Source: Herminiimonas sp. KBW02
Lineage (GTDB): Bacteria > Pseudomonadota > Gammaproteobacteria > Burkholderiales > Burkholderiaceae_D
Direction of reading: 5' to 3'
DNA: 64,000 bases
Assembly: GCF_003852535.1 (NCBI RefSeq)
Contig: NZ_QAJP01000004.1
Location: 544,719 to 608,718 of the forward strand
The notes beneath the pieces were generated by a model. The model was not told where the DNA came from. It did no database searches and saw only the letters and a program-made list of their open reading frames with translations. How positions within the stretch are numbered: position 1 is the first letter of the stretch; each line of letters begins with the position of its first letter. The position numbers and the translations under genes are program-made. Shown in pieces: positions 1,597 through 34,237 of this stretch.

Positions 1597-3237
1597 TTAG
1601 AGTGCAGCCTTGGCACGTGCGATCAGGCCATTGGTCGAGCTGTCATGTTGCTCTGGTTTAGCTTTATCGCTGAGTTCGGCTGCGATGTTTTTTGCCAGTA
1701 TCTTGCCCAACTCTACGCCCCATTGATCGAAACTGTTAATGCCCCAGATCGCGCCCTGCACAAACACCTTGTGTTCATACAGTGCAATCAATGCGCCCAG
1801 CGCGTGCGGATTCAGGGTTTCCATCAGGATGGTATTGCTTGGACGATTGCCCGGGAAGATGCGATGCGGCAATAGCTTCTGGATTTCAGCTTCAGGCAAA
1901 CCTTGCGCCTGCATATCGGCGCGTACTTCGTCGGCATTCTTGCCGCGCATGAAGGCTTCGGATTGTGCGAAGCAGTTTGCCAGCAACAATACCTGGTGTT
2001 GTTCGAGTGCGTGGGTAGGCTTCAGGGCCGCGATGAAATCGACTGCCATGATGTCTGTGCCCTGATGCAATAACTGGAAGTAGGCGTGCTGGCCATTGGT
2101 GCCGACATCGCCCCAGATGATAGGGCAGGTCGTGGTGCTGGTTTTGGCGCCATCGACTTGTACGCTCTTGCCGTTGCTTTCCATTTCCAGCTGTTGCAGA
2201 TAGCCGGGAAACAGACGTAAATCCTGATGGTAAGGCGCGATCGAAATCGAGCTGCTGCCGATAAAGTTGCGATTCCAGATGCCGATCAGCGCGAGGATGA
2301 CGGGCAGGTTTTCTTCCAGCGGAGCTTGCTGAAAGTGCTGATCCATTGCATGCGCGCCAGCGAGGAATTCACTGAAGCATTCCGGGCCGATCGACAGCAT
2401 CAGTGCGAGACCGATGGCCGACCACACCGAATAGCGACCGCCGACCCAGTCCCAGAACGGGAACATATTCTCCGGCGCTATGCCGAAGGCTTGCACCGCA
2501 TCGAGCTGGGTAGAGACGGCGACGAAGTGTTTGCTTAAATCGCTTTCCTTCGCATGACGCAGGAACCAGGCACGTGCGGACTGTGCATTCATCATGGTTT
2601 CGGCGGTATTGAAACCCTTGGAAGCAATGATGAATAAGGTCGTGGCAGGGTTGATGCGCGTGAGCAGGGCGTCGAGGTCGTGGCCGTCCACGTTAGAGAC
2701 AAAGTGCGTAGTCAGACGTGGATGGGCAAAGGAGCGCAGCGCCTGACAAGTCATCTTAGGGCCGAGATAGGAGCCGCCTATGCCTATGTTGACGACGTCT
2801 GTAATTTCACGGTTGTCATAGCCGCGCCACGCACCGGAACGGACGCGTTCGCTGAAGATGCCCATGCGATCCAGTACCGCATGTATTTCGGGAACGATGT
2901 CTTGCTGCCCCAGCACCAGCTTCTCATTGCGTGGTTTGCGCAGGGCTGTGTGCAGGACGGCGCGGTGTTCGGTACGATTGACTTCCTGGCCGGCAAACAT
3001 TGCATCGCGCTGCGCTTCGACTTGCGTTTCGCGCGCCAATGCGTACAGCAATGTCATGGTTTTGTCATCGACTATATTTTTCGAGTAGTCGAGGAACAGG
3101 CCAGCGCCTTCGGCGGATAATTTGCTGAAGCGGGCAGGATCTTGCGTAAATAAATGACGAACCTGCCGGTCTTTGTTTTCTGTATGGTGCTGTTGCAGCG
3201 CCTGGAAGGCGGCAGTAGCGGTAAGGGTCGTGCGCAT
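1597..3237 (-). CDS. pgi: Glucose-6-phosphate isomerase
   Basis: Interconverts glucose 6-phosphate and fructose 6-phosphate in the cytoplasm. Family motifs are intact: GIGGSYLGPKMTCQA, ASKGFNTAETM, the phosphoglucose-isomerase signature around WDWVGGRYSVWSAIGL, GDVGTNGQHAYFQLLHQGT and the C-terminal NSFDQWGVELGK. The open frame extends upstream to a GTG at 3270. I prefer the ATG at 3237 (MRTTLTATAAFQALQQH), because it gives a 546-residue protein of normal length with an N-terminus like known Pgi proteins. Neither start has a convincing Shine-Dalgarno. The gene heads a leftward pgi-zwf-hexR arrangement and is divergent from edd. Such an arrangement lets fructose 6-phosphate be recycled into the Entner-Doudoroff route. 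Confidence 0.96.
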   Translation of the reverse strand: MRTTLTATAAFQALQQHHTENKDRQVRHLFTQDPARFSKLSAEGAGLFLDYSKNIVDDKTMTLLYALARETQVEAQRDAMFAGQEVNRTEHRAVLHTALRKPRNEKLVLGQQDIVPEIHAVLDRMGIFSERVRSGAWRGYDNREITDVVNIGIGGSYLGPKMTCQALRSFAHPRLTTHFVSNVDGHDLDALLTRINPATTLFIIASKGFNTAETMMNAQSARAWFLRHAKESDLSKHFVAVSTQLDAVQAFGIAPENMFPFWDWVGGRYSVWSAIGLALMLSIGPECFSEFLAGAHAMDQHFQQAPLEENLPVILALIGIWNRNFIGSSSISIAPYHQDLRLFPGYLQQLEMESNGKSVQVDGAKTSTTTCPIIWGDVGTNGQHAYFQLLHQGTDIMAVDFIAALKPTHALEQHQVLLLANCFAQSEAFMRGKNADEVRADMQAQGLPEAEIQKLLPHRIFPGNRPSNTILMETLNPHALGALIALYEHKVFVQGAIWGINSFDQWGVELGKILAKNIAAELSDKAKPEQHDSSTNGLIARAKAAL

Positions 3238-3284
3238 GGGCGTTATATGCGATCTATGGTTGGTTTTCACTATACATCAGTTTA

Positions 3285-3301
3285 TGGTAATTTCACTACA
3301 A
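3285..3301. promoter_or_regulatory. HexR-like operator candidate on the pgi side
   Basis: TGGTAATTTCACTACAA is an imperfect palindrome, with half-sites TGGTAAT and ACTACAA around TTC. Five of seven positions are symmetric, and the right half fits the TTGT...ACAA / TGTARY type described for HexR. It lies about 50 bases upstream of the preferred pgi start. Its role is inferred from the HexR-like gene in the same unit. Confidence 0.4.
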
Positions 3302-3360
3302 ATAAATTTACGAGCGGCAATGCAAGACGCTATATTCGCAACGTTCGCTATTTGTAGTGA
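3293..3360. repeat. Perfect 11-base inverted repeat with 46-base spacer
   Basis: TCACTACAAAT at 3293-3303 is the exact reverse complement of ATTTGTAGTGA at 3350-3360. The arms share the TTGTAGT/ACTACAA half-site seen in the neighbouring operator candidates. With a 46-base spacer this looks more like two binding sites in opposite orientation, possibly bridged by looping, than an RNA hairpin. Confidence 0.5.
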
Positions 3361-3525
3361 GCCTGTAACGGATACCTGCTAGCAAGGAAAGTTCAATCTA
3401 ATCTCATAATTCCCGGGTTTGCTGCGGGATCGCACAGGAATGAATTTCTGGCGCGTAATGTAGTCATAGCGTAGTCATGACTTTCTGCACCCCGGTAAAA
3501 AATGACGATAGGTGGCTGTAAATTA

Positions 3526-3542
3526 TTGTAGTAAAATTTCAA
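3526..3542. promoter_or_regulatory. HexR-like operator candidate just upstream of edd
   Basis: TTGTAGTAAAATTTCAA has the half-site TTGTAGT and a right half ATTTCAA matching its complement at five of seven positions. It lies 24 bases before the edd start codon, where a bound repressor would block transcription. The TTGTAGT half-site recurs at 3352-3358. Confidence 0.45.
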
Positions 3543-3565
3543 AACTGTTTTTCTAGGGATTTAAT

Positions 3566-5494
3566 ATGTCGCTCCATCCTGTTGTGACTGCCGTAACCGC
3601 ACGGATCGTAGAGCGTAGCCGGCCGTATCGCGCTGCTTACCTTCAACGTTTGGAAAATACGCGTCAAAAGGGTGTGCAACGCAGTACGCTGTCCTGTACC
3701 AATCTGGCGCATGGTTTTGCCGCTTCTCCGGCCAACGACAAGCTGATACTCAAGCAGCAGGTCGCGCCATCGATTGCCATCGTCTCTGCCTACAACGACA
3801 TGCTGTCGGCGCATCAGCCTTTTGAACGCTTCCCGCACATCATCAAGGATGCGGTGCGCAAGGCCGGTGGCGTGGCGCAATTCGCCGGTGGCGTACCGGC
3901 TATGTGCGACGGTATTACGCAAGGGCAGCCGGGGATGGAGTTGTCGCTGTTCTCGCGCGACACGATTGCCATGTCTACCGCGATTGCCTTATCCCACAAT
4001 ATGTTCGACGCCGCCGTCTATCTGGGCGTATGCGACAAAATCGTACCGGGCCTGGTCATAGGCGCCCTGCATTTCGGTCATTTGCCTGCGGTATTTGTTC
4101 CGGCGGGGCCAATGACGAGCGGCATGTCGAATCCGGAAAAAGCCAAAATACGCCAGCTCTACGCACAAGGGAAAATTGGTCGCGACGAATTGCTGGAAGC
4201 CGAAGGCAAGTCCTACCACGACGCTGGTACCTGTACTTTCTACGGCACCGCGAACAGTAATCAAATGTTGATGGAAGTAATGGGCCTGCATTTGCCGGGC
4301 GCCGCTTTCATTACGCCGAATACGCCTTTGCGCGATGCCTTGACAGCCCACGCCGCACAACGTGCAGTCGAGATCAGTGCGCAAGGCCAGACTTACACAC
4401 CCGTCGGCCGCCTGGTCGATGAAAAAACCATCGTCAACGCCGTGATCGCATTGCTGGCTACCGGTGGTTCGACCAACCACACCTTGCACCTGGTGGCGAT
4501 GGCGAAGGCGGCAGGTATCGTGATCGACTGGGATGACTTTGATGCCTTGTCGGCAGTTGCACCGCTGGTGGCGCGTATATATCCAAATGGTGATGCCGAC
4601 GTGAATCACTTCCACGCTGCAGGTGGCACCGGTTTTGTGATTCGTGAATTGCTGGATGCCGGGCTCTTGCATGACGATGTCATGACCATCCTCGGCCGCG
4701 GCTTGCGCGCGCATGCCACCGAACCTTTCCTGCAAGGCGAGCAAGTGGTCTGGAAGCCGGCTGCAGCTGTCAGCGGCAATACCGATGTATTGCGTACAGC
4801 CGCTGCGCCGTTCTCCGGCGACGGCGGGATGAAGCTCATGTCCGGCAACCTGGGGCGCGCCGTGGTCAAGGTTTCAGCCGTCAAGGTGCAGCATCGCATC
4901 GTCACTGCTCCAGCCATCGTATTCGACTCGCAGGAAGCATTTATGCATGCGTATCAGGCCGGCGAGTTGAATCGTGACTTCATCGCCGTGCTGCGTCATC
5001 AGGGGCCACGTGCGAACGGTATGCCGGAATTACATGCGTTGACACCAGCGCTGGGCAGTCTGCAGGATGCAGGACGTCATGTTGCCTTGGTGACTGATGG
5101 CCGCATGTCCGGCGCATCGGGCAAAGTGCCAGCCGCCATCCACGTTTCGCCGGAAGTATTGGCGGGCGGTCCTCTGGGCCGTGTGCGCACCGGCGACATG
5201 ATCGAGCTCAACGCCGAAACCGGCGTGTTGCAGGCGCTGGTGCCGGAAGCCGAATGGGCGGCGCGCGGTGTAGAGCCTTCCGACCTGTCGCAGAATGAAA
5301 TCGGCATGGGCCGCGAATTGTTTGCCATGTTCCGCCATTCGGTCAGTGCGGCGGAAGAGGGGGCAACCACTTTCGGCTTGCCACCACCACTGCTGGAAGC
5401 GGATGAAGATAAAACGACCAATACGCTGGCAGTGCCGGACGATGAGCCGTTTGTCGATGAAGATAATCTGATAGAGCGACCTATAGGAAACTGA
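3566..5494 (+). CDS. edd: Phosphogluconate dehydratase (Entner-Doudoroff)
   Basis: Dehydrates 6-phosphogluconate to 2-keto-3-deoxy-6-phosphogluconate using an iron-sulfur cluster. It belongs to the IlvD/Edd family. Visible landmarks are [18 protein letters not shown], the cluster cysteine in [40 protein letters not shown] and [21 protein letters not shown]. The 642-residue length exceeds the roughly 600 residues typical of Edd. The surplus is a C-terminal acidic tail of about 35 residues ([19 protein letters not shown] and on) with no recognisable function. eda follows after 2 nt, so the two are cotranscribed and perhaps translationally coupled. Regulation by the HexR-like protein is likely from the upstream operator candidate. 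Confidence 0.97.
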
Positions 5495-18127: not shown

Positions 18128-18835
18128 GTGTCGAACGAAACAGAAGTCAAGGTGGAAGTGAAACCAGAAGCGCCCGTAGCTGCGCCAGCACCAGCGAAAA
18201 AAGCACCTGCAGCAAAGAAAGCTCCGGCTGCTAAAAAAGCGCCAGCGAAGAAAGCGGCGGCAAAAAAAGCAGTAGCAAGCAAAGCGCCGGCAGCCAAAAA
18301 AGCCGTCACTAAAAAAGCTGCTGCCAAACCTGCGGCCAAAGCGCCAGCAAAAAAAGTGACAGCCAAACCAGCAGCGACCAAGTCACCTGCAAAGAAAGCT
18401 GCAACCAAAGTCGCAACTAAGGCTACAACCAAGCCGGCAGCAAAACCAGTAACTAAGCCAGTAACTAAGCCAGCAACTAAGGCAACAGCAAGCAAGCGCG
18501 TTACCAAGGCAAGCAAGCCAGCGGTGAAGCCTGCAGCTAAACCAGCTACCAAACCGGCTACCAAACCAGCAGCGCCGGTATTGGCCAAACCAGTTGCAGA
18601 AGTGAAGGGCAAGAAAGCCAAGCTGGTACGCGATAGCTTCACCATGCCGGAAATCGAATATCAGGTCTTGAGCGAAGTAAAAAAAGCCTTCCTGAAAGCC
18701 GGTGTTGCGGTCAAGAAAAGCGAATTGCTGCGTGCCGGCGTCGCCCTGATCAAAGACATGGACATGAAGAAGCTCAATACGGTGATCGCGGCATTGTCGC
18801 CACTCAAGGCTGGTCGCCCGAAAAAATCCAAGTAA
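18128..18835 (+). CDS. Lysine/alanine/proline-rich histone H1-like DNA-binding protein
   Basis: A 235-residue, strongly basic protein starting at GTG (SNETEVKVEVKPEAPVAAPA). A short acidic leader is followed by about 150 low-complexity residues made of AAKKAPA, AKPAA, KPVTK and KPATK units. The last 70 residues are non-repetitive and look folded (DSFTMPEIEYQVLSEVKKAF, ending LKAGRPKKSK). The repetitive tail matches the bacterial histone H1-like/AlgP type, which coats DNA non-specifically. The C-terminal domain resembles one often attached to such tails in betaproteobacteria. The internal repeats invite length variation between strains. It is a single gene with a strong promoter-like region and two stem-loops behind it. 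Confidence 0.85.
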   Translation: MSNETEVKVEVKPEAPVAAPAPAKKAPAAKKAPAAKKAPAKKAAAKKAVASKAPAAKKAVTKKAAAKPAAKAPAKKVTAKPAATKSPAKKAATKVATKATTKPAAKPVTKPVTKPATKATASKRVTKASKPAVKPAAKPATKPATKPAAPVLAKPVAEVKGKKAKLVRDSFTMPEIEYQVLSEVKKAFLKAGVAVKKSELLRAGVALIKDMDMKKLNTVIAALSPLKAGRPKKSK

Positions 18836-18890: not shown

Positions 18891-18919
18891 TAAAAACCGG
18901 TGCCATGCGCCGGTTTTTA
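18891..18919. terminator. Bidirectional intrinsic terminator
   Basis: TAAAAACCGG (18891-18900) pairs with CCGGTTTTTA (18910-18919), and the stem extends inward with one G-T pair. A-rich and T-rich flanks fit termination in either direction. Confidence 0.85.
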
Positions 18920-18952: not shown

Positions 18953-18992
18953 GTGTCATGAAAATGACATGCTCCTGTCATTTTGCTGAAGT
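18953..18992 (+). promoter_or_regulatory. Four tandem Pho-box heptamers upstream of the lipid operon
   Basis: Heptamers at exact 11-base spacing read GTGTCAT (18953), ATGACAT (18964), CTGTCAT (18975) and CTGAAGT (18986). They match CTGTCAT at 6, 5, 7 and 4 of 7 positions, with 4-base linkers. After the last heptamer and 10 bases comes TACGCT (19003-19008), a weak -10 at the same distance as in the pstS promoter here. AAAGGA at 19025-19030 then precedes the ATG at 19037. The 11-base periodicity is the hallmark of PhoB binding. Regulation itself is inferred. Confidence 0.65.
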
Positions 18993-19036
18993 AATCAACA
19001 GTTACGCTTCGTTCGTCACAATACAAAGGACGACAC

Positions 19037-19804
19037 ATGCGATTACTGAATGCTTCTGCCGATACCAATCTTGCTTCTCCCAAGCTGACGCTGAGCCTTG
19101 CCAGCACGCAAAAGGAAGTACGTGAAGTACAGCGTTTGCGTTACAAAGTTTTTATCGAGTCTATGGGACTGTCTTCACTGAAGAACGAAGAGAGACTCGA
19201 TAAGGATGAATTTGATGCGTACTGCGATCACCTGATCGTACGCGATTCGGAAACACTGAAAGTGGTCGGCACCTACCGCGTCATGAGCCCGCAAGCTGCG
19301 CGCAAGATGGGGCAGTTCTACTCCGAGCAGGAATTTGACCTGAGCCGCCTGAATAACCTGCGCAACAGCATTGCTGAAGCCGGACGTGCATGCATCCATC
19401 CGGACTACCGCAGCGGTGGCGTCATCATGCTGCTGTGGGCTGGCCTGGCCGCTTTCATGAAGAAAGAAAAATGCGAATACCTGATCGGTTGTGCCAGCGT
19501 CAGCCTGGCTGATGGCGGTCACAATGCGGCCGCGCTGTATCACTCGCTGGCAGAAAACAACCTGGCACCAGCCGAATATCGCGTCACACCACATTTGCCT
19601 TTCCCTATCGCCGAGCGCGAGCCTGGACATGTTGCGGTGGTGCCACCCCTGATTAAGGGCTACCTGCGCAGCGGTGCCTGGGTCTGTGGCAACCCGGCCT
19701 GGGATCCTGACTTCCACAGTGCAGACCTGTTCATGATGTTGCCACTGGCTAAGCTCGACGCCCGTTACGCACGTCACTACCTGAAAGAGGCGCAACCAGC
19801 ATGA
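19037..19804 (+). CDS. olsB: OlsB-like N-acyltransferase (ornithine lipid synthesis type, GNAT fold)
   Basis: A 255-residue acyltransferase of the COG3176/OlsB type. OlsB moves a 3-hydroxyacyl group from acyl carrier protein to the alpha-amino group of ornithine, making lyso-ornithine lipid. Family landmarks are the N-terminal EVQRLRYKVFIESMG, the acidic DKDEFDAYCDHLIVRD, VVGTYRVMSP, EAGRACIHPDYRSGGVIMLL and YLIGCASVSL. ATG 19037 has AAAGGA upstream. The stop overlaps the start of the PlcP-like gene by 4 bases (ATGA), so the two are translationally coupled. Four tandem Pho-box heptamers precede it, in line with phosphate-starvation induction of ornithine lipids known in other bacteria. OlsA is not in the window. 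Related autoinducer-synthase-like acyltransferases are an alternative. Confidence 0.7.
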   Translation: MRLLNASADTNLASPKLTLSLASTQKEVREVQRLRYKVFIESMGLSSLKNEERLDKDEFDAYCDHLIVRDSETLKVVGTYRVMSPQAARKMGQFYSEQEFDLSRLNNLRNSIAEAGRACIHPDYRSGGVIMLLWAGLAAFMKKEKCEYLIGCASVSLADGGHNAAALYHSLAENNLAPAEYRVTPHLPFPIAEREPGHVAVVPPLIKGYLRSGAWVCGNPAWDPDFHSADLFMMLPLAKLDARYARHYLKEAQPA

Positions 19805-20661
19805 AGCCACGCGACCAATTTTTGACGACTGATTTCATCGGTGCGGAAGTTGGCGCGAAGCGCGAGCCAGTTCGCTTCCGGACAATCTGGATTTCAGACC
19901 TGCACCTGGGAACGACTGGTTGCCAGGCGCAGCGCCTGCTGGAATTCCTGCGTAAAACGGAATCGGACACCCTCTACCTGGTCGGTGACATCATCGACGG
20001 CTGGCAACTCAAACGCCGCTGGTACTGGGAACAAGCGCATAACGACGTAGTACAGACGGTCCTGAAAAAGGCCAAGAAGGGTACCGAAGTGATCTTCGTA
20101 CCCGGTAATCACGATGAAGCGGTGCGCCAGTTCATAGATTTGGATTTTGGCGGCATCCGTATCCGTGATGAACTCATACACACGACGGCACAGGGCAAGC
20201 GCATGCTGGTGCTGCACGGTGACCGTTTTGACGGCGTGATTGCCTGTGCCAAATGGCTCGCCTATGTGGGTGACAACCTGTACACCGTCATCCTCAAATT
20301 CAATCAATGGTTCAACAGCTGGCGCGCCCGTGCCGGTTTGCCGTACTGGTCGCTGTCGCAGTACCTGAAGCTGAAAGTGAAGAACGCCGTCAGCTATATC
20401 TCTTCATTTGAAAACGCGCTGGCGGCTGAAGCCAAGCGTCGTGGACTGGATGGCGTGATCTGCGGCCATATCCACAAACCGGAGATCCGCGATATCGACG
20501 GCATTACATATTGCAATGATGGTGACTGGGTCGAAAGTCTGTCTGCTTTGGTGGAGGACGCGTCCGGTGCCTTGCGTCTGGTGACCTGGCAGGAAATCGT
20601 CATGTCGCACAAGGCAGCAAAACATGAAAAAGGTGAAGAATTATGCGTATCGCCATCGTAA
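19801..20661 (+). CDS. plcP: PlcP-like calcineurin-type phosphoesterase (phospholipase C / UDP-diacylglucosamine hydrolase family)
   Basis: A 286-residue soluble metallophosphoesterase. The five metal-binding blocks are visible: ISDLHLGT, LVGDIIDGW, PGNHDEAVRQF, VLHGDRFDGV and GVICGHIHKPEI. The family is usually annotated LpxH-like (UDP-2,3-diacylglucosamine hydrolase). The stretches RLLEFLR, LKRRWYWEQAHNDVVQ and YWSLSQYLKLKVKNAV read closer to PlcP, the phosphate-starvation phospholipase C of Sinorhizobium that degrades phospholipids to diacylglycerol. It overlaps the OlsB-like gene by 4 bases and the downstream glycosyltransferase by 19 bases. That context, with Pho boxes upstream, favours lipid remodelling over lipid A synthesis. 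A housekeeping LpxH elsewhere in the genome would settle it. Confidence 0.75.
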   Translation: MKPRDQFLTTDFIGAEVGAKREPVRFRTIWISDLHLGTTGCQAQRLLEFLRKTESDTLYLVGDIIDGWQLKRRWYWEQAHNDVVQTVLKKAKKGTEVIFVPGNHDEAVRQFIDLDFGGIRIRDELIHTTAQGKRMLVLHGDRFDGVIACAKWLAYVGDNLYTVILKFNQWFNSWRARAGLPYWSLSQYLKLKVKNAVSYISSFENALAAEAKRRGLDGVICGHIHKPEIRDIDGITYCNDGDWVESLSALVEDASGALRLVTWQEIVMSHKAAKHEKGEELCVSPS

Positions 20662-21692
20662 CCGATGCCTGGGAGCCGCAAGTCAATGGTGTGGTCAACA
20701 CACTGAAAGCGACGCGTAAGCAATTGCGCGCCAACGGTCACGCGGTGCTGATGGTGACGCCGGAAAACATGCGTAGCTATTCCTGCCCGACTTATCCGGA
20801 GATACGTCTGGCCTACAAGCCGTATGCCAAGGTTGCGGCGGCACTGGAAGACTTTGATCCGGATTGCATCCACATCGCAACCGAAGGCCCTATGGGTCTG
20901 GCGGCACGCCGCTTTTGTATCAACCGTGGGCTGGATTTCACTACCGCATATCACACCCGTTTCCCTGAATACCTGCGCGCACGTTTCCATTTGCCGCTGG
21001 CATTGACCTATCGCTGGCTGAAGTGGTTCCATAAACCAGCGAAGGCCGTTATGGTGCCGACGCCGCGCATGCAGGATGCGCTGGAAAAAAGCGGCTTCAA
21101 GAATGTCGTGCAGTGGAGCCGCGGTGTGGATACCGATTACTTCCGCCCGGGCCAGCGTGAAGAAGTGACACAAGAACGACCGCTGTACTTGTACGTCGGT
21201 CGCATTGCGGTGGAAAAAAATATCGAAGCTTTCCTGCAAATGGATTTGCCCGGCGCGAAGTGGGTGATCGGTGATGGCCCCATGCGCGAAGAACTGGAGA
21301 AGAAGTACCCGGAAGTGCATTTCCTCGGTGCCAAGCCGCATGATGCATTGCCGGCTTACTACAGCTGCGCCGATGTATTTGTATTCCCCAGCCGTACCGA
21401 TACTTTCGGCCTGGTACTGATCGAAGCAATGGCTTGTGGCGTGCCGGTGGCTGCCTATCCGGTCGAAGGGCCGATAGATGTGGTGGCACAAGGCAAATCA
21501 GGTGTATTGCATGAAGACCTGATGCGCGCCTGCTTCGACGCACTGAACCTGAAACGTTCAGTGGTGCGTGAGCATGCGTTGCATTACTCATGGAACGCCG
21601 CGACTCAGCAATTCCTCACGCATTTGCATCCGGTACGCAAAACCGACCACATCCCTATGGTGCCGCGCACCGCACCCAAGCCTAGCGTTTGA
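20643..21692 (+). CDS. GT4-family glycosyltransferase, Agt-like (diacylglycerol glycosyltransferase candidate)
   Basis: A 349-residue GT-B glycosyltransferase of family GT4. The N-terminal domain opens IAIVTDAWEPQVNGVVNTLK and holds HIATEGPMGLAARRF and TAYHTRFPEYLRAR. The C-terminal domain has LYVGRIAVEKNIEAFL, GDGPMREELEKKYP and the nucleotide-binding EX7E region in FPSRTDTFGLVLIEAMACG. This sequence type is that of Agt, which glycosylates diacylglycerol to glycolipids under phosphate limitation and is often encoded next to plcP. The start lies inside the plcP-like gene, so expression is coupled. The acceptor (diacylglycerol) and donor (UDP-glucose or UDP-glucuronate) are inferred from context. 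A mannosyltransferase role, as for MgtA-type enzymes, is the main alternative. Confidence 0.7.
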   Translation: MRIAIVTDAWEPQVNGVVNTLKATRKQLRANGHAVLMVTPENMRSYSCPTYPEIRLAYKPYAKVAAALEDFDPDCIHIATEGPMGLAARRFCINRGLDFTTAYHTRFPEYLRARFHLPLALTYRWLKWFHKPAKAVMVPTPRMQDALEKSGFKNVVQWSRGVDTDYFRPGQREEVTQERPLYLYVGRIAVEKNIEAFLQMDLPGAKWVIGDGPMREELEKKYPEVHFLGAKPHDALPAYYSCADVFVFPSRTDTFGLVLIEAMACGVPVAAYPVEGPIDVVAQGKSGVLHEDLMRACFDALNLKRSVVREHALHYSWNAATQQFLTHLHPVRKTDHIPMVPRTAPKPSV

Positions 21693-27441: not shown

Positions 27442-27475
27442 AGTGTAGTGGCCCATTATGACAACTTAATGACAG
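27442..27475 (-). promoter_or_regulatory. Pho box and -10 element for ppk-sixA
   Basis: On the minus strand CTGTCAT, linker TAAG and TTGTCAT occupy 27475-27458, matching the CTGTCAT consensus at 7 and 6 of 7 positions. After exactly 10 bases comes TACACT (27447-27442). A transcript from here would have a very short leader before ATG 27427, which slightly favours the ATG at 27409 or another start point. Confidence 0.75.
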
Positions 27476-27516: not shown

Positions 27517-27550
27517 AAGTCATAAAGCTGTCATAATTGTTCGCTAGAGT
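27517..27550 (+). promoter_or_regulatory. Pho box and -10 element for pstS
   Basis: AAGTCAT (27517-27523), linker AAAG and CTGTCAT (27528-27534) match CTGTCAT at 5 and 7 of 7 positions. After exactly 10 bases comes TAGAGT (27545-27550). The layout mirrors the ppk box on the other strand. A further single heptamer CTGTCAT on the minus strand lies at 27506-27500. Confidence 0.78.
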
Positions 27551-27587: not shown

Positions 27588-28631
27588 ATGCGATTGAATC
27601 AATTTGTTAAAACCGCCATGGTAGCTGCAGTCGCAGCGGTGGCGTTCTCTTCCGCAGTAGCAGCTGATATTACAGGTGCTGGTGCGACCTTCCCATACCC
27701 AATTTATTCCAAATGGGCTGAATCCTACAAAGCTGCAACCGGTACTGGCTTGAACTATCAATCCATCGGTTCCGGCGGCGGCATCAAACAAATCAAGGCA
27801 AAAACCGTTGATTTCGGCGCATCCGACATGCCATTGAAAGCAGAAGAGCTGGAAGCTGAAGGCTTGCTGCAATTCCCGGCAATCATGGGCGGCGTTGTGC
27901 CTATCGTCAACCTGGACGGCATCACCCCAGGTCAATTGAAAATGACGTCCGAAGTGTTGGCTAACATCTACCTCGGTAAAATCACCAAATGGAACGATGC
28001 ACGTATTACCGCATTGAACCCAGGTGCAAAACTGACAGACTCCGACATCACCGTCGTACACCGTTCGGACGGCTCGGGTACCACATTCCTGTGGACCGAC
28101 TTCCTGTCGAAAACCAATGCTGACTTCAAAGAAGGCGTGGGCGCAGGTACAGCAGTTAAATGGCCAGCAGGCGTGGGCGGTAAAGGTAACGAAGGCGTTG
28201 CAGCTAACGTACAACGTATCAAGGGTTCGATCGGCTACGTAGAATACGCGTACGCTAAAAAGAACAAAATGTCCCACACACAATTGAAAAACCGTGACGG
28301 TCAATTTGTACAACCTGACGACGAAACATTCAAGGCGGCTGCAGCTGGTGCTGAGTGGGCAAAAACCCCAGGTATGGGCGTGATCCTGACCAACCAGGCT
28401 GGTAAAGCTAGCTGGCCTATCACTGGCGCATCGTTCATCCTCTTGCACAAATCGCAAGCATCGGCTGAGCGCGCTAAAGAAGTGTTGAAATTCTTTGACT
28501 GGTCCTACAAAAATGGCGGCGCAATGGCTGCTGACCTGGACTACGTTGCAATGCCTGCACCAGTTGTGAAATTGGTTCAGGACGCATGGAAAGCAAATGT
28601 TAAAGATGCTTCCGGCAAGGCTATTTGGTAA
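27588..28631 (+). CDS. pstS: Phosphate ABC transporter, periplasmic phosphate-binding protein
   Basis: Binds phosphate in the periplasm and delivers it to PstCA. The 347-residue protein has a Sec signal peptide (MRLNQFVKTAMVAAVAAVAF, cleavage after SSAVA). The mature start ADITGAGATFPYPIYSKWAE is the PstS hallmark. Ligand loops are visible in SGGGIKQIKAKTVDFGASD and the VVHRSDGSGTTFLW stretch. AAGGAG precedes the ATG. Codon choice is visibly biased compared with its neighbours, as expected for a highly expressed protein. It is the first gene of pstSCAB-phoU-phoBR and lies behind a Pho box. A large stem-loop separates it from pstC. Confidence 0.98.
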   Translation: MRLNQFVKTAMVAAVAAVAFSSAVAADITGAGATFPYPIYSKWAESYKAATGTGLNYQSIGSGGGIKQIKAKTVDFGASDMPLKAEELEAEGLLQFPAIMGGVVPIVNLDGITPGQLKMTSEVLANIYLGKITKWNDARITALNPGAKLTDSDITVVHRSDGSGTTFLWTDFLSKTNADFKEGVGAGTAVKWPAGVGGKGNEGVAANVQRIKGSIGYVEYAYAKKNKMSHTQLKNRDGQFVQPDDETFKAAAAGAEWAKTPGMGVILTNQAGKASWPITGASFILLHKSQASAERAKEVLKFFDWSYKNGGAMAADLDYVAMPAPVVKLVQDAWKANVKDASGKAIW

Positions 28632-28669
28632 GAGCTGATTTAATCGTAGATTCAGTCGCTATTTAACTA

Positions 28670-28714
28670 AGGGCTGTCTCAGTCACGCACCGCAAGGTGC
28701 ACTGAGGCGGCCCT
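28670..28714 (+). other. Large intercistronic stem-loop between pstS and pstC
   Basis: AGGGC (28670-28674) pairs with GCCCT (28710-28714), CTCAGT (28678-28683) with ACTGAG (28701-28706), and GCACC (28687-28691) with GGTGC (28696-28700) around a GCAA loop. Small internal loops lie between. No T run follows. Such hairpins behind a binding-protein gene commonly protect its mRNA and lower permease expression. Confidence 0.65.
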
Positions 28715-28732
28715 GCTTAAAACCAAATAATT

Positions 28733-29761
28733 ATGAGCGCAAGTCTTAATACTATTCCTGCCCACGCAATGACTATCGATAAAGAAAATAGTGAAAGCGG
28801 CATCTTCAGCAAATCGCTGATGGCCACCATGCGCAAGCAGCGTCTGCAGGATTTTTTATTTCATAAAGTAACGTTCATCTTCGCGCTGAGCGTTTTGTTC
28901 GTTTTGCTCGGCATCATTGCATCCCTCATGATAGGGGCATGGCCAGCGTTAAAAGAATTCGGTCTGCCATTCGTGACCAGCGTTGAGTGGGATCCAGTCA
29001 ACGATCAATATGGCGCAGCAATTGCCATCGTCGGCACATTAGCTACTTCTCTCATCGCCCTGGCGATCGCTTTCCCGATCAGCTTCGGCATCGCTTTGTT
29101 CCTCACGGAAATCTGCCCGGCCTGGTTGAAACGACCATTGGGCACCGCAGTTGAGCTGCTGGCAGGTGTGCCAAGTATCATCTACGGTATGTGGGGTTTG
29201 TTTGTATTTGCGCCATTGTTCTCGGATTACATCCAGCCTGCGCTGGCTGCGACCCTGGGTCAATTACCGATTATCGGCAATTTGTTCAAAGGTCCGATGA
29301 TGGGTATTGGTATTTTGGCGGCAGGCATCATCCTGGCAGTCATGATCATCCCGTTCATCGCTTCGGTCATGCGCGACGTTTTTGAAATCGTGCCGCCAGT
29401 CCTGAAAGAATCAGCCTACGCACTGGGCTGCACCAAATGGGAAGTGGTACGCAAAGTCGTATTGCCGTACACCCGCATCGGTGTAGTTGGTGGCGTGATG
29501 CTGGGGCTCGGACGGGCGCTGGGTGAAACCATGGCGATTACCTTCGTCATCGGTAACGCGCACAAATTATCGTGGTCACTGTTTGCAGCTGGTAACAGTA
29601 TCGCATCGACGCTGGCAAATGAATTTGCTGAAGCGGAATCGGTATTGCACGTATCGTCGCTGTTTGCCCTCGGCCTGATTCTGTTCGTGATTACTTTCCT
29701 CGTCCTCTCGGCTGCGAAGCTGATGTTGATGGGCATGTCCCGCAAGGAGGGTGCTAAATGA
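28733..29761 (+). CDS. pstC: Phosphate ABC transporter permease PstC
   Basis: Inner-membrane permease of the Pst phosphate importer. The 342-residue protein has an N-terminal cytosolic stretch of about 45 residues and six hydrophobic segments. The permease coupling loop [20 protein letters not shown], and the following [14 protein letters not shown], are typical of PstC. A periplasmic loop ([19 protein letters not shown]) lies after the first membrane segment. Its stop overlaps the pstA start by 4 bases, so subunits are coupled in translation. It follows pstS after a stem-loop that probably lowers its level relative to PstS. Confidence 0.97.
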
Positions 29762-30618
29762 AAACCGAAACCATGAATCCGGTTTATCGGAAACGCCTGT
29801 TTATCCATCGCGTTGGTATCGCCTTGTCCTTCATGGCGATGTTGCTGGGTCTGTTCTTCCTGATGTGGATTCTGTTCACTCTGGTGATCAAAGGCGTCGG
29901 CGCAATCAATCTCGCGATCTTCACGCAAACCACGCCTGCGCCTGGTAGTGAAGGTGGTGGTTTGATGAATGCCATCGTCGGCAGCTTGCTGATGGTCGGC
30001 GCCGCAGTCTTTATCAGCACACCGATCGGTATCCTGGCAGGTATTTATCTGGCGGAATACGGTGAAGTCAGCTGGTTTGCCAAAGTTACCCGTTTCGTGA
30101 CCGACATCATGTTGTCTGCACCATCGATCGTGATTGGTTTATTTGTCTACGCAATCTACGTGGCGAACGTGAAGCACTTCTCCGGTTGGGCCGGCAGCTT
30201 TGCGATTTCCCTGATTGCGATTCCGGTCGTCGTACGTACTACCGACAATATGCTGAACCTGGTGCCAACCAGCCTGCGTGAAGCGGCATTTGCGCTGGGT
30301 GCACCGCGCTGGCGCGTTGCCACCTTCGTGCGTCTGCGTGCAGTCAAGGCTGGCGTCATTACCGGCGTTCTGCTGGCAGTCGCACGTATCTCGGGCGAAA
30401 CAGCACCATTGTTATTTACTGCGTTGAACAACCAGTTCTACAGCGCCAACATGAATGCGCCTATGGCCAACTTGCCAGTGGTGATCTATCAGTTTGCGAT
30501 GAGTCCTTACGACAACTGGCGTTCGCTGGCATGGGGCGGTGCATTGCTGATTACCTTCAGCGTACTGGCACTGAACATCCTGTCGCGTTCTTTGTTCAAT
30601 CAAAAAATCCATAACTGA
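29758..30618 (+). CDS. pstA: Phosphate ABC transporter permease PstA
   Basis: Second inner-membrane permease of the Pst importer. The 286-residue product has six hydrophobic segments and the coupling motif [19 protein letters not shown] that contacts PstB. It is followed by [18 protein letters not shown], matching PstA rather than PstC. It begins inside the pstC stop (ATGA) and ends 20 bases before pstB. Nothing unusual is seen in length or motifs. Confidence 0.97.
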
Positions 30619-30638
30619 ATTTAATCCAAGCGAACGCT

Positions 30639-31424
30639 ATGACTACTCAAACGTCTGTGGACATGACCAATAAAAAGACCCTCGAAATTGCCAACCTGAA
30701 TTTCTTCTACGGCTCCTTCCAGGGCCTGAAGAATATCAATCTCGATATTCACGATAAAAAGGTAACGGCATTCATCGGCCCGTCCGGCTGCGGCAAATCG
30801 ACTTTGCTGCGCACCTTCAATCGCATGTATGACCTGTACCCGGGTCAACGTGCCGAAGGCAAGATCATGTACCACGGCAAAAATATCCTGGAACCAGGTC
30901 AGGACGTGAACATGTTGCGCGCCAAGGTCGGTATGGTGTTCCAGAAGCCGACTCCGTTCCCGATGTCGGTCTACGACAACATCGCTTTCGGTGTGCGTCT
31001 GTATGAAAACCTGCCGAAAGGCGAAATGGACGAGCGCGTCGAATGGGCCCTGAACAAGGCGGCGCTGTGGACCGAAGTCAAGGACAAGCTCAATAAGAGC
31101 GGCCTGAGCCTGTCCGGTGGTCAGCAACAACGTTTGTGTATCGCACGCGGCGTTGCAGTGAAGCCGGACGTATTGTTGCTGGATGAGCCTACTTCGGCGC
31201 TGGATCCGATCTCTACCGCAAAAATCGAAGAGCTGATCAGCGAACTGAAAGGCGACTACACCATCGCCATCGTGACGCACAACATGCAACAAGCAGCACG
31301 CTGCTCGGATTACACGGCTTATATGTACCTGGGTGAGTTGGTCGAATTCGGTGAAACCGATCAGATCTTCATGAACCCGAACAAGAAAGATACACAGGAC
31401 TACATCACTGGTCGTTTCGGTTGA
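30639..31424 (+). CDS. pstB: Phosphate ABC transporter ATP-binding protein PstB
   Basis: Cytoplasmic ATPase that powers the Pst importer. The 261-residue protein has the Walker A motif [20 protein letters not shown]-loop [14 protein letters not shown], signature [14 protein letters not shown], Walker [14 protein letters not shown] and the switch His in [13 protein letters not shown]. The RTFNRM and NMQQAAR residues are specific to PstB. It forms the transporter with PstS, PstC and PstA. Together with PhoU it takes part in signalling to PhoR. Position in the operon is standard. Confidence 0.98.
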
Positions 31425-31494
31425 TTGAACAAGAATAAGAACGTGCAGCGTGCTGTACACAAACATTTAACTGAATTTATTTAGGAGAAACCTG

Positions 31495-32205
31495 ATGTCA
31501 GGCGAACACTCTTCCAAGCAATACGACATGGATCTGGAAACCATCCGTTCCAAAGTATTGTTGATGGGCGGCCTTGTTGAGAGCCAGTTCCACGATGCTG
31601 TGGCATGTTTTAGAAGCGGTAACATCGGCCAGGCCGAAACCGTGATCAAAGCGGATGAAAACGTCAATCACCTGGAAGTGTCGCTGGACGATGCATGCAG
31701 CCATCTGATCGTCAAACGCCAACCGGCGGCGAATGATCTGCGTACCGTGATGGCGACCATCAAGGTCATTACCGACCTCGAGCGCATAGGCGACGAAGCG
31801 ACCAAAATCGCACGTGCAGCCAAAAACATTACCGAGCGTGGCGTCACCACCATCAATCACTACGAAACCATCCGTGTGATGGCAAGCAGCGCCAGCAACA
31901 TGTTGCACGACGCACTGGATGCATTTGCGCGCCTAGATGGCAAGCAAGCGATCAAACTGATTGCGCAAGATGAAGCAGTGGACCACGAGTTCCGCTCCAT
32001 TATGCGTACGCTGATTACTTTCATGATGGAAGACCCGCGCACGATTTCCAGCGCGCTGGATACCTTGTGGGTGGCAAAGGCGATTGAACGCATCGGTGAC
32101 CACGCAAAAAATATTGCGGAATACGTGATCTACATTGTCGAAGGCAAGGATATTCGCCATACTGATTACGCTGCTACCCAATTGGACGAGCGCACCACTA
32201 ACTAA
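31495..32205 (+). CDS. phoU: Phosphate signalling accessory protein PhoU
   Basis: Negative modulator of PhoR and of Pst transport activity. The 236-residue, all-helical protein holds the two PhoU repeats, seen as DADENVNHLEVSLDDACSHL-type KADENVNHLEVSLDDAC in the first half and IAQDEAVDHEFRSIMRTL in the second. Each is followed by an (R)xxGDxAxNIAE-like motif (DLERIGDEATKIARAA and IERIGDHAKNIAEYV) that binds metal clusters in the family. A GGAGAAA site precedes ATG 31495. phoB begins 6 bases after its stop. Confidence 0.97.
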   Translation: MSGEHSSKQYDMDLETIRSKVLLMGGLVESQFHDAVACFRSGNIGQAETVIKADENVNHLEVSLDDACSHLIVKRQPAANDLRTVMATIKVITDLERIGDEATKIARAAKNITERGVTTINHYETIRVMASSASNMLHDALDAFARLDGKQAIKLIAQDEAVDHEFRSIMRTLITFMMEDPRTISSALDTLWVAKAIERIGDHAKNIAEYVIYIVEGKDIRHTDYAATQLDERTTN

Positions 32206-32211
32206 GCGATT

Positions 32212-32901
32212 ATGGCTGCTGAAAAACCTACTATTCTGATTGTTGAAGACGAACCGCCAATTATCGAGCTGGTGACATTTACCCTGAAAGGGGCCGGCTG
32301 GAACGTTGCTGCGGTTCAGAACGCAGGCGATGCCTGGGACTTCATCCAGCAACGCCTGCCGCAGCTGATCCTGCTCGACTGGATGCTGCCTGATCAAAGC
32401 GGTTTGCGTCTGTTATCGCGTATCCGCGCTGATCGCCAGTTCAATGAACTGCCTATCATCATGCTGACTGCAAAAAGCATGGAAGAAGACAAAATCGCCG
32501 GCCTCGACAATGGCGCCGATGATTACGTCACCAAGCCGTTTTCACCACGTGAACTGACGGCACGTATCAATGCACTGCTGCGTCGCAAGACGCCCGAGCA
32601 TTCGCAGACACTCATGACCGCCGGGAATATCAGCCTGGATCCGGTCAGCTGCAGCGTCAGCATGAACGATGAAAAAATCGACATCGGCCATGCTGAATTC
32701 AAACTGTTGAAATTCTTCCTCGCGCATCCGGACCGCGTATTTTCGCGTAGCCAGCTGCTGGACAAGGTATGGGGCGATCACGTCGTGATCGAGGAGCGTA
32801 CGGTGGACGTCCACGTGCTGCGTTTGCGTAAAGCCCTGAAAGACGCGGAACACTTGATCAAAACGGTGCGTAGTGTAGGCTATATGCTTTCTACGAAATA
32901 A
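32212..32901 (+). CDS. phoB: Phosphate regulon response regulator PhoB
   Basis: A 229-residue OmpR-type response regulator that binds Pho boxes when phosphorylated by PhoR. The receiver domain (1-120) has the acidic pair in ILIVEDEPPI, the phospho-acceptor Asp in LILLDWMLPDQSG, the Thr in IIMLTAKSM and the Lys in DYVTKPFSPREL. The C-terminal winged-helix domain ends in the recognition and wing region RTVDVHVLRLRKAL and TVRSVGYM. The Pho boxes in this window (27458-27475, 27517-27534 and the array at 18953-18992) are its likely sites. It lies between phoU and phoR, 6 and 16 bases away. Confidence 0.98.
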   Translation: MAAEKPTILIVEDEPPIIELVTFTLKGAGWNVAAVQNAGDAWDFIQQRLPQLILLDWMLPDQSGLRLLSRIRADRQFNELPIIMLTAKSMEEDKIAGLDNGADDYVTKPFSPRELTARINALLRRKTPEHSQTLMTAGNISLDPVSCSVSMNDEKIDIGHAEFKLLKFFLAHPDRVFSRSQLLDKVWGDHVVIEERTVDVHVLRLRKALKDAEHLIKTVRSVGYMLSTK

Positions 32902-32917
32902 GCCGACCAAGCTCTCT

Positions 32918-34237
32918 ATGAATCCTCAGTTGTTGTTCTGGGTACCCGCAAGCCTGCGACTATCCATCATCTTGATATTCGCAGGGATAGTCGGGTACTT
33001 CTTCGGCTGGTCCATCGGGCTGGCCGTTGCATTAGTACTGATGATCGCCCTGATCGTCGTACAGCTCAATTACCTGTATTTGCTGAGCGCCTGGCTCGAT
33101 CATCCGGATAGCGAAAAGCTGCCGGATGGCTGGGGCGCCTGGACCGATATCTTTTCACGCCTGTATCGCCTGCGTCGCGACGATGAACGCAATCGCGCCG
33201 AGCTGAGCGAATGGCTGGCGCGCTTCCGTCAGGCCATGAGCTTGCTGCCGGACGGCGTGGTCATCATGGACGACGTGCTCTTCCTCGAGTGGTGCAACCC
33301 GGCTGCGGAAAAACACCTGGGTCTGAACAATGGTCGTGACAAGGGCATGCGGGTCACCAATCTGATCCGTAATCCTGACTTCATCGATTACATCATTCTG
33401 GGACGGTACGAGCAGCCACTGACGCTGACGTTGAAGGATCGCAAGCTGATCGTACAGATCATCCCGTTTGAAAACCGTCGTCAGATCCTGGTCACGCATG
33501 ACGCGACTGAATCCGATCGTATCGAAATGATGCGTAGAGACTTCATCGCCAATGCCTCGCATGAACTGCGCACGCCGTTGACAGTCATTAACGGCTTCCT
33601 CGAAATTGCACAGGGTCAGCCCAACCTTGATCCGGATGTGCGGATGTCGCACCTGAATCTGATGATCGAGCAGGGCAAGCGCATGCAAAACCTGGTTGAA
33701 GACATGCTGACGCTGACGCGGCTGGAGTCGATTGACTATCCACTGCGCCCGGAACACGTGAACATCGGCAACCTGTTACGGCAAATCCTGCGGGAAGCAG
33801 AAGCCTTGTCCGGTGGTCGTCACACCATCTCATTGACGGTGGAAGGTCCGGACATCCAGGGCAGCACCGACGAATTGCGCAGCGCCTTTGGCAACCTGGT
33901 CTCGAATGCGGTGCGTTATACGCCGGAAGGCGGTCGTATCGACATCAAATGGCAGGATGTCGGTAATGGACCACAGTTCTCCGTCAAAGACAGCGGCATA
34001 GGCATACGTGCTGAACACATTGTCCGCCTGACCGAGCGTTTCTACCGCGTCGACAAGAGCCGTTCCCGTGAAACCCAGGGTACCGGACTGGGGCTGGCTA
34101 TCGTTAAACACGTGCTGCTCAGGCACGGTGCGGTGCTGGCGATTGAGTCGCAGCCGGAGATGGGGAGTACCTTCATCGTCAAATTTGACAATAGCGTGGT
34201 CGAAAACGACGCACTGCACCTGCTCAAAAGCCAATAA
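32918..34237 (+). CDS. phoR: Phosphate regulon sensor histidine kinase PhoR
   Basis: A 439-residue membrane histidine kinase. Two closely spaced N-terminal hydrophobic segments (about residues 13-55) are followed by a cytoplasmic linker, a PAS-type domain (MSLLPDGVVIMDDVLFLEWC), the HisKA box FIANASHELRTPLTVINGFL, and the ATPase domain with FGNLVSNAVRYTPEGG, DSGIGI and GTGLGLAIVKHV. The virtual lack of a periplasmic loop fits PhoR, which senses the state of Pst through PhoU rather than phosphate directly. It is the last gene of the pst-pho operon, and a stem-loop follows. Confidence 0.97.
   Translation: MNPQLLFWVPASLRLSIILIFAGIVGYFFGWSIGLAVALVLMIALIVVQLNYLYLLSAWLDHPDSEKLPDGWGAWTDIFSRLYRLRRDDERNRAELSEWLARFRQAMSLLPDGVVIMDDVLFLEWCNPAAEKHLGLNNGRDKGMRVTNLIRNPDFIDYIILGRYEQPLTLTLKDRKLIVQIIPFENRRQILVTHDATESDRIEMMRRDFIANASHELRTPLTVINGFLEIAQGQPNLDPDVRMSHLNLMIEQGKRMQNLVEDMLTLTRLESIDYPLRPEHVNIGNLLRQILREAEALSGGRHTISLTVEGPDIQGSTDELRSAFGNLVSNAVRYTPEGGRIDIKWQDVGNGPQFSVKDSGIGIRAEHIVRLTERFYRVDKSRSRETQGTGLGLAIVKHVLLRHGAVLAIESQPEMGSTFIVKFDNSVVENDALHLLKSQ

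Follow-up and report, generated by a model that had tools for sequence, protein, structure and literature searches.

Most of what is known about lipid remodelling comes from marine bacteria, rhizobia, methanotrophs and pseudomonads. Here we describe a locus of the soil or water bacterium Herminiimonas sp. KBW02, at positions 18953–21692 of a 64,000-nucleotide stretch of DNA that we call the window (G000:C11:544719-608718, in a genome of 3.64 Mb), in which three overlapping genes of the olsB, plcP and agt types follow a putative binding array for PhoB. Judged by family matches, promoter layout and comparison with relatives, the locus is very probably a PhoB-controlled lipid-remodelling operon. 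Each gene type is known; the joined olsB-plcP-agt arrangement appears to be new, and it is common in its family.

The closest described systems are plcP-agt operons. Six types of plcP context have been distinguished, with agt as the commonest neighbour and with putative Pho boxes (Sebastian et al., PMC4796936). PlcP is directly followed by a GT4 Agt, as in the window, in type 2 of that scheme, in PA3219-PA3218 of Pseudomonas aeruginosa (PMC8528852) and in Methylosinus (PMC9239053). Pho boxes ahead of the genes are described in both PMC4796936 and PMC8528852. The P. aeruginosa arrangement has been tested by mutants and enzyme assays (PMC8528852); a Methylosinus plcP-agt mutant lacks the glucuronosyl glycolipid, and for this genus ornithine lipid is described at low phosphate (PMC9239053). 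The operon of the window differs from these in having olsB first, owning the putative Pho promoter, and the context section of PMC4796936 names neither an olsB neighbour nor an olsB-led plcP context. Types 3 and 5 of the same scheme, in which plcP precedes other glycosyltransferases, resemble the alternative that fills the third slot in other Oxalobacteraceae, but that section mentions no olsB in front of them.

Two further systems share parts of the arrangement. In Burkholderia sensu lato, a scan with an 18-base matrix predicted a Pho box for an OlsB-type gene, but in the text of that paper the words phospholipase and glycosyltransferase do not occur and genomic context is given as 'data not shown' (PMC7814305). 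In Pseudomonas putida BIRD-1, PlcP, DagK, OlsA and OlsB are all PHO-dependent and the same activities stand under PhoB control, but plcP (tag 1390) lies far from olsA-olsB (0974-0975), whereas in the window olsB and plcP share a promoter (PMC5082522). In the open-licence papers ranked highest, the top 7 to 20 in each search, we saw neither an olsB-plcP-agt operon nor interchangeable parts of one in relatives described, although a lower-ranked or subscription paper could hold one.

A putative PhoB-binding array precedes three overlapping genes

The operon consists of genes for an OlsB-type N-acyltransferase (19037–19804, 255 amino acids), a PlcP-type calcineurin-like phosphoesterase (19801–20661, 286 amino acids), which is a predicted phospholipase C yielding diacylglycerol, and an Agt-type GT4 glycosyltransferase (20643–21692, 349 amino acids) that is predicted to glycosylate diacylglycerol, all on the forward strand. 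An earlier model-made reading of this DNA, produced without database searches and hereafter called the sequence-only reading, had described three overlapping genes behind four heptamers, and open reading frame (ORF) analysis confirms the overlaps of 4 bases between the first two genes and 19 bases between the last two. The heptamers, too, are as described: the array (18953–18992, forward strand) consists of GTGTCAT at 18953, ATGACAT at 18964, CTGTCAT at 18975 and CTGAAGT at 18986, exactly 11 bases apart, and like arrays precede olsB in relatives. Ten bases past the last heptamer lies a weak −10 element, TACGCT (19003–19008, forward), and a Shine–Dalgarno-like AAAGGA (19025–19030, forward) precedes the first ATG. 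By eye, GTTACGCT or a similar string recurs at the −10 position in many relatives' promoters, and many also have a string similar to the AAAGGA.

The same box-to-(−10) distance of 10 bases holds for TAGAGT behind the pstS-promoter Pho box (27517–27534, forward) and TACACT behind the ppk-promoter Pho box (27458–27475, reverse), two comparison promoters 8.5 kb away, which agrees with what the sequence-only reading had claimed. Scored as three units against CTGTCAT at an 11-base pitch, the operon array matches at 18 of 21 positions, which makes it the best-scoring site of either strand in the window. Across 20 shuffled windows, three-unit sites with 16 matches averaged 0.05 per window, and none had 17 or more. 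The two-unit pattern, allowing up to 3 mismatches, matched 11 times in the window against 5.2 expected, 3 of the 11 belonging to the operon array, and 2 of 100 shuffles reached as many, so two units on their own make weak evidence, which cannot be said of the whole array. None of 20 other, hand-picked ORF starts in the window has a three-unit array in its upstream stretch. A program scan found no sigma-70 promoter with a consensus-like −35 between 18700 and 21800, where 1.9 were expected, as one would expect if the Pho box replaces the −35 element. Tandem CTGTCAT-like repeats with an 11-base period in place of the −35, a feature of Pho regulon operons, are present before the operon, and binding of PhoB to them is predicted.

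The array recurs outside the window. Among 55 related loci, 37 have a three-unit array upstream of olsB at p 0.01 against shuffles. This count includes L008, nearly the window's own sequence, L009, in which the match begins at residue 109, and four loci with an uncertain start (L069, L071, L076 and L087); it leaves out the window's own copies (L001 and L003) and L037, whose upstream stretch is too short. The association extends to olsB genes without a plcP partner: 34 family genomes have olsB and no plcP match (108 olsB genomes minus the 74 that also carry plcP), and of the 20 of these that were tested, 19 have the three-unit array.

The phosphoesterase groups with PlcP and apart from LpxH

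Among named families, LpxH models and LpxH structures lie nearest to the product of the second gene, and 20 of the 25 plasmid-collection matches listed are annotated as UDP-2,3-diacylglucosamine diphosphatase (UDP, uridine diphosphate), the other 5 being unannotated. These names would fit an enzyme of lipid A synthesis, LpxH or a stand-in for it, and hence an operon for general envelope biosynthesis, a reading that we regard as extremely improbable. With the NCBIfam LpxH models the operon phosphoesterase scores 53 and 49 bits, where 134 and 190 are required. A genuine lpxH, which the sequence-only reading had suggested looking for and whose absence would have told against that reading, lies elsewhere in the genome (G000:C11:720747-721403) and scores 263 bits against a cut-off of 190, on a scale where the operon protein reaches 47; across 100 genomes of the phylum, 25 LpxH matches exceed the cut-off (192–368 bits) and all others stay at or below 47 bits.

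The comparison of PlcP and LpxH in a tree, likewise proposed there, gave the same answer. Its 71 rows divide into 51 PlcP-type rows, the operon phosphoesterase among them, and 20 LpxH rows at 100/100 on a very long branch, with the caveats that the program warns of a bootstrap not fully settled and of some uncertain long rows and that 50 of the PlcP rows were picked from fetched loci. In the third metal block, 50 of the 51 PlcP-type rows have His (GNHD), whereas all 20 LpxH rows have Arg (GNRD); the window protein has GNHD, with His104. Rhizobial and plcP-agt-linked rows fall on the PlcP side. Among them is the Sinorhizobium row (L100), the nearest named row to a tested PlcP; its record carries no annotation at this stretch, and similarity and tree position suggest that it is an orthologue of the tested S. 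meliloti PlcP. The separate lpxH, the tree and the GNHD block together rule out an LpxH identity, and the earlier judgement that the protein is closer to PlcP than to LpxH is upheld. That it cleaves phospholipid to diacylglycerol is predicted.

The GNHD/GNRD difference has been described before, for a sister group of LpxH named LpxH2 with members in S. meliloti and P. aeruginosa, and P. aeruginosa lpxH2 failed to complement lpxH (PMC3087551). We infer that LpxH2 is the PlcP family; the function of LpxH2 is given as unknown in that paper, whereas at the window locus a function is suggested by context. The diphosphatase name is probably wrong for the closer relatives among the plasmid-collection matches H1–H25, and database entries so named can be PlcP, which is a warning for annotation. 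Among the 20 so-named matches listed, only H1 (L101) was placed in the tree, on the PlcP side, and the five weakest, at 31–45% identity, are possibly something else. Some matches in that collection are Sinorhizobium 'plasmids' of 3.5 Mb that resemble chromosomes.

The glycosyltransferase resembles plcP-linked Agt

The third protein has the GT4 domains Glyco_transf_4 and Glycos_transf_1 (Pfam), lies directly after plcP with the 19-base overlap and is 51% identical to the plcP-linked copy in three f11 genomes (presumably Pseudomonas), against 35% for a second copy there, and the sequence-only assignment to an Agt-like GT4 enzyme is borne out. A model for GlcN-phosphatidylglycerol synthase is its best NCBIfam match, at 83 bits far short of the cut-off of 480, which raises the thought that its acceptor might not be diacylglycerol but, for example, phosphatidylglycerol, a polysaccharide or lipopolysaccharide; the solved structures nearest to it belong to different glycosyltransferases and do not decide between acceptors. 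We think such an acceptor quite improbable, given the position after plcP, which is that of tested Agt enzymes, the higher identity to the plcP-linked copy and the fact that in other relatives the slot is held by proteins of the monogalactosyldiacylglycerol (MGDG) synthase type, one of which has as its best match a model for diglucosyl diacylglycerol synthase (212 bits, cut-off 500). Diacylglycerol thus stands as the predicted acceptor. Of the two P. aeruginosa enzymes, the plcP-linked Agt1 takes its sugar from UDP-glucose and Agt2 from UDP-glucuronate (PMC8528852), and the two copies in the f11 genomes would correspond to Agt1 and Agt2. With 51% against 35% identity, this hints that glucose is the likelier sugar for the window enzyme.

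The operon is conserved and its third slot is exchanged

Among 145 family genomes, counting the own genome and one near-identical genome (G140), plcP occurs in 76, the olsB-type gene in 108, agt in 46 and an MGDG_synth gene in 73; agt was counted at E 1e-60, which misses distant GT4 copies such as that in L099. In the phylum, 104 of 249 genomes have plcP. Within the 76 plcP genomes of the family, olsB lies directly upstream (<200 bases) in 48, and directly downstream (<400 bases) lies agt in 42 and MGDG_synth in 12. The exact olsB-plcP-agt trio is found in 31 of the 76, from 7 genera and counting the own genome; in G128 and G062, both among the 31, an MGDG_synth gene comes next. The sequence-only reading had asked how widely the trio is conserved with Pho boxes; the trio is not confined to the own genome, and like arrays precede olsB in 37 of the 55 related loci.

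The order olsB-plcP-MGDG occurs in 6 genomes of 3 genera, and in 3 of 3 tested cases the third-slot protein matched PF06925 with 82–99 bits. Rearranged versions exist as well. In eight genomes, from 6 genera, olsB lies 2.1–3.0 kb downstream of plcP-agt on the same strand, and the 5 that were fetched (L088, L089, L090, L091 and L095) all read plcP-agt-dgkA-sixA-olsB, sixA coding for a SixA-type phosphatase and the diacylglycerol kinase being confirmed by Pfam in L090 and L091. L120, from another family of the order, has olsA, plcP, agt, dgkA and olsB, with olsA divergent. These orders show that the linkage survives rearrangement, and its survival of both reordering and the replacement of an enzyme by a family of like predicted activity is the strongest computed evidence for function. 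A kinase behind plcP-agt suggests that excess diacylglycerol is returned to phospholipid; in the own genome the diacylglycerol kinase is located elsewhere. A prokaryotic diacylglycerol kinase also comes after plcP-agt in six Pandoraea-type loci (L072, L073, L075, L078, L080 and L082).

Behind the MGDG-synthase-type gene stands a conserved membrane-like protein of about 157 residues, as at L050:6063-6536; of the 20 MGDG-bearing loci in a set of 80 loci, 17 have it after the third gene. It is also seen in L018, L021, L026, L028, L037, L046, L047, L049, L051, L053–L055, L057, L060–L062, L092, L093 and L097. The one copy tested had no Pfam or NCBIfam match, and none of 114 loci has the protein without an MGDG-synthase-type gene.

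Phosphate genes also lie near loci of relatives. PhoX is upstream in 10 of the 80 loci (Pfam for L053), all five plcP-agt-dgkA-sixA-olsB loci have a Ppx-like gene past olsB on the other strand (ORF table; Pfam for L090), and ppk1 and Ppx are annotated in L101. Further afield, a close agt (at least 48% identity) directly follows plcP in 7 of 22 more distant loci (L100–L121), namely L104, L105, L114, L116, L117, L118 and L120, whose PlcP is 52–64% identical to that of the window.

Promoters, gene orders and model scores that weigh against the reading

Several observations weigh against a PhoB-controlled remodelling operon, beginning with the promoter. No significant three-unit array was found at 18 of the 55 olsB promoters, among them all 10 Herbaspirillum-labelled loci, where the genes are kept. 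By eye, 7 of these 10 retain half of the array (the last units) and the −10, for example TGTCATTTCCCTGAAATAATC...GTTACGCT in L014; the other three (L029, L031 and L032) keep the trio with nothing recognisable of the array upstream of olsB, and regulation may have changed there. The array is also found at p 0.01 in only 11 of 25 hand-picked loci with plcP first or alone, and before only 4 of 20 hand-picked MGDG-synthase genes located outside such operons, some of them from genomes without plcP. General Pho control of glycosyltransferase genes lying elsewhere was rejected on that last count. The Herbaspirillum case speaks for a reading in which the heptamers are not a PhoB site and the operon is constitutive or answers another signal. 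This is very unlikely in our view, because the array is the best in 64 kb, its geometry equals that of pstS and ppk, its spacing is conserved across genera and 0 of the 20 other upstream stretches in the window match. PhoB control is the reading that we retain.

Gene order gives further exceptions. No close agt lies directly behind plcP in 15 of the 22 distant loci, including Sinorhizobium, although in L108 and L109, which belong to these 15, a distant GT4 occupies that place. Six genomes of genus g32, and Undibacterium loci such as L034, L040 and L048, have olsB-plcP with no adjoining glycosyltransferase. In the family genome G001, olsB adjoins agt and there is no plcP match (L096 = G001:C1:3003000-3010500, 2659–4637), which means that this pair can stand without this phospholipase.

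Model scores qualify the naming of the first gene. Its product has an Acetyltransf_5 domain (125.7 bits, Pfam) and is the sole such match in the genome, with no second Acetyltransf_5 or OlsB-type protein found; the OlsB models of NCBIfam are the best by far, at 167.8 and 163.1 bits, yet fall below their cut-offs of 350 and 320. Since the curated scores are missed while every other model is left far behind, we file it as OlsB-type and not as proven OlsB, and the earlier assignment to an OlsB-like acyltransferase holds at the family level. The protein has one match, at 35% identity, in a 3.5 Mb Sinorhizobium record, and no solved structure matches it by sequence at E 0.01. Scores this far under both cut-offs, together with a 22-bit match to the model for GlsB, a glycine N-acyltransferase, leave some room for an enzyme whose product is not ornithine lipid but a different aminolipid, for example one based on glycine, glutamine or lysine. 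We consider this unlikely: 168 and 163 bits stand against 22, the genome has a candidate OlsA-type partner, and in Burkholderia sensu lato OlsB homologues carry Pho boxes and ornithine lipids are reported, as data not shown, for P. xenovorans at low phosphate (PMC7814305). Ornithine is the favoured substrate of the predicted N-acyltransferase.

The OlsA candidate itself, on contig C12 beside a gene that by eye resembles pyrC, has OlsA as its best model with 118.5 bits against a cut-off of 300. It is unlinked to the operon, and no two-unit box matching at 11 or more of 14 positions lies upstream of it. With the candidate unlinked and no Pho box visible there, the operon covers only the first step of the ornithine-lipid pathway. 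The sequence-only claim that the remodelling activities are joined in one PhoB-controlled unit is supported by the array, its recurrence, the gene order and the exchange of the glycosyltransferase; it stands as far as three predicted activities sit in one operon, and it needs trimming for ornithine lipid, of which only that first step is included.

Setting in the window

The presumed regulator is encoded close by. pstS-pstC-pstA-pstB-phoU-phoB-phoR (27588–34237, forward strand) begins 6 kb downstream of the operon, with phoB 13 kb from it, and the window additionally encodes ppk and a ppx-like gene. The PlcP of the window shares 99% identity with its counterpart in Herminiimonas contaminans. 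Directly upstream of the operon, an ORF at 18128–18835 encodes an alanine-, lysine- and proline-rich product without a Pfam match, and lysine/alanine-rich ORFs resembling it lie near plcP in L049, L062 and L093. As judged by eye, the gene preceding the operon is closed off at about 18892–18918 by an inverted repeat that has a T-rich tail; the program scan does not report this repeat because its 9-base loop exceeds the length that the scan allows.

A proposed phosphate-saving lipid swap

The layout suggests the following course of events. At low phosphate, phosphorylated PhoB would bind the four 11-base repeats that stand in for the −35 element and turn on a single message for the three overlapping genes. 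PlcP would remove the head groups from membrane phospholipids to leave diacylglycerol, to which Agt would add a sugar, most likely glucose, giving a phosphate-free glycolipid. OlsB would N-acylate an amino acid, most likely ornithine, and the unlinked OlsA would complete the aminolipid. The outcome would be that phosphate is freed while the lipid mass of the membrane is kept.

For the Burkholderiales as a whole, we lean towards a modular Pho-controlled lipid-swap unit, in which an ancestral Pho-controlled olsB captured plcP and the third slot took any available diacylglycerol glycosyltransferase, either a GT4 Agt or an MGDG-synthase-type enzyme with its conserved membrane protein, with diacylglycerol kinase serving elsewhere as a return valve. 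If this is true, one promoter would set the proportions of aminolipid, glycolipid and recycled phospholipid, and near relatives with a like promoter would offer a natural comparison of the glycolipid made by the GT4 type with that made by the MGDG-synthase type. Lipid remodelling would then become a trait predictable from gene order alone in many Burkholderiales.

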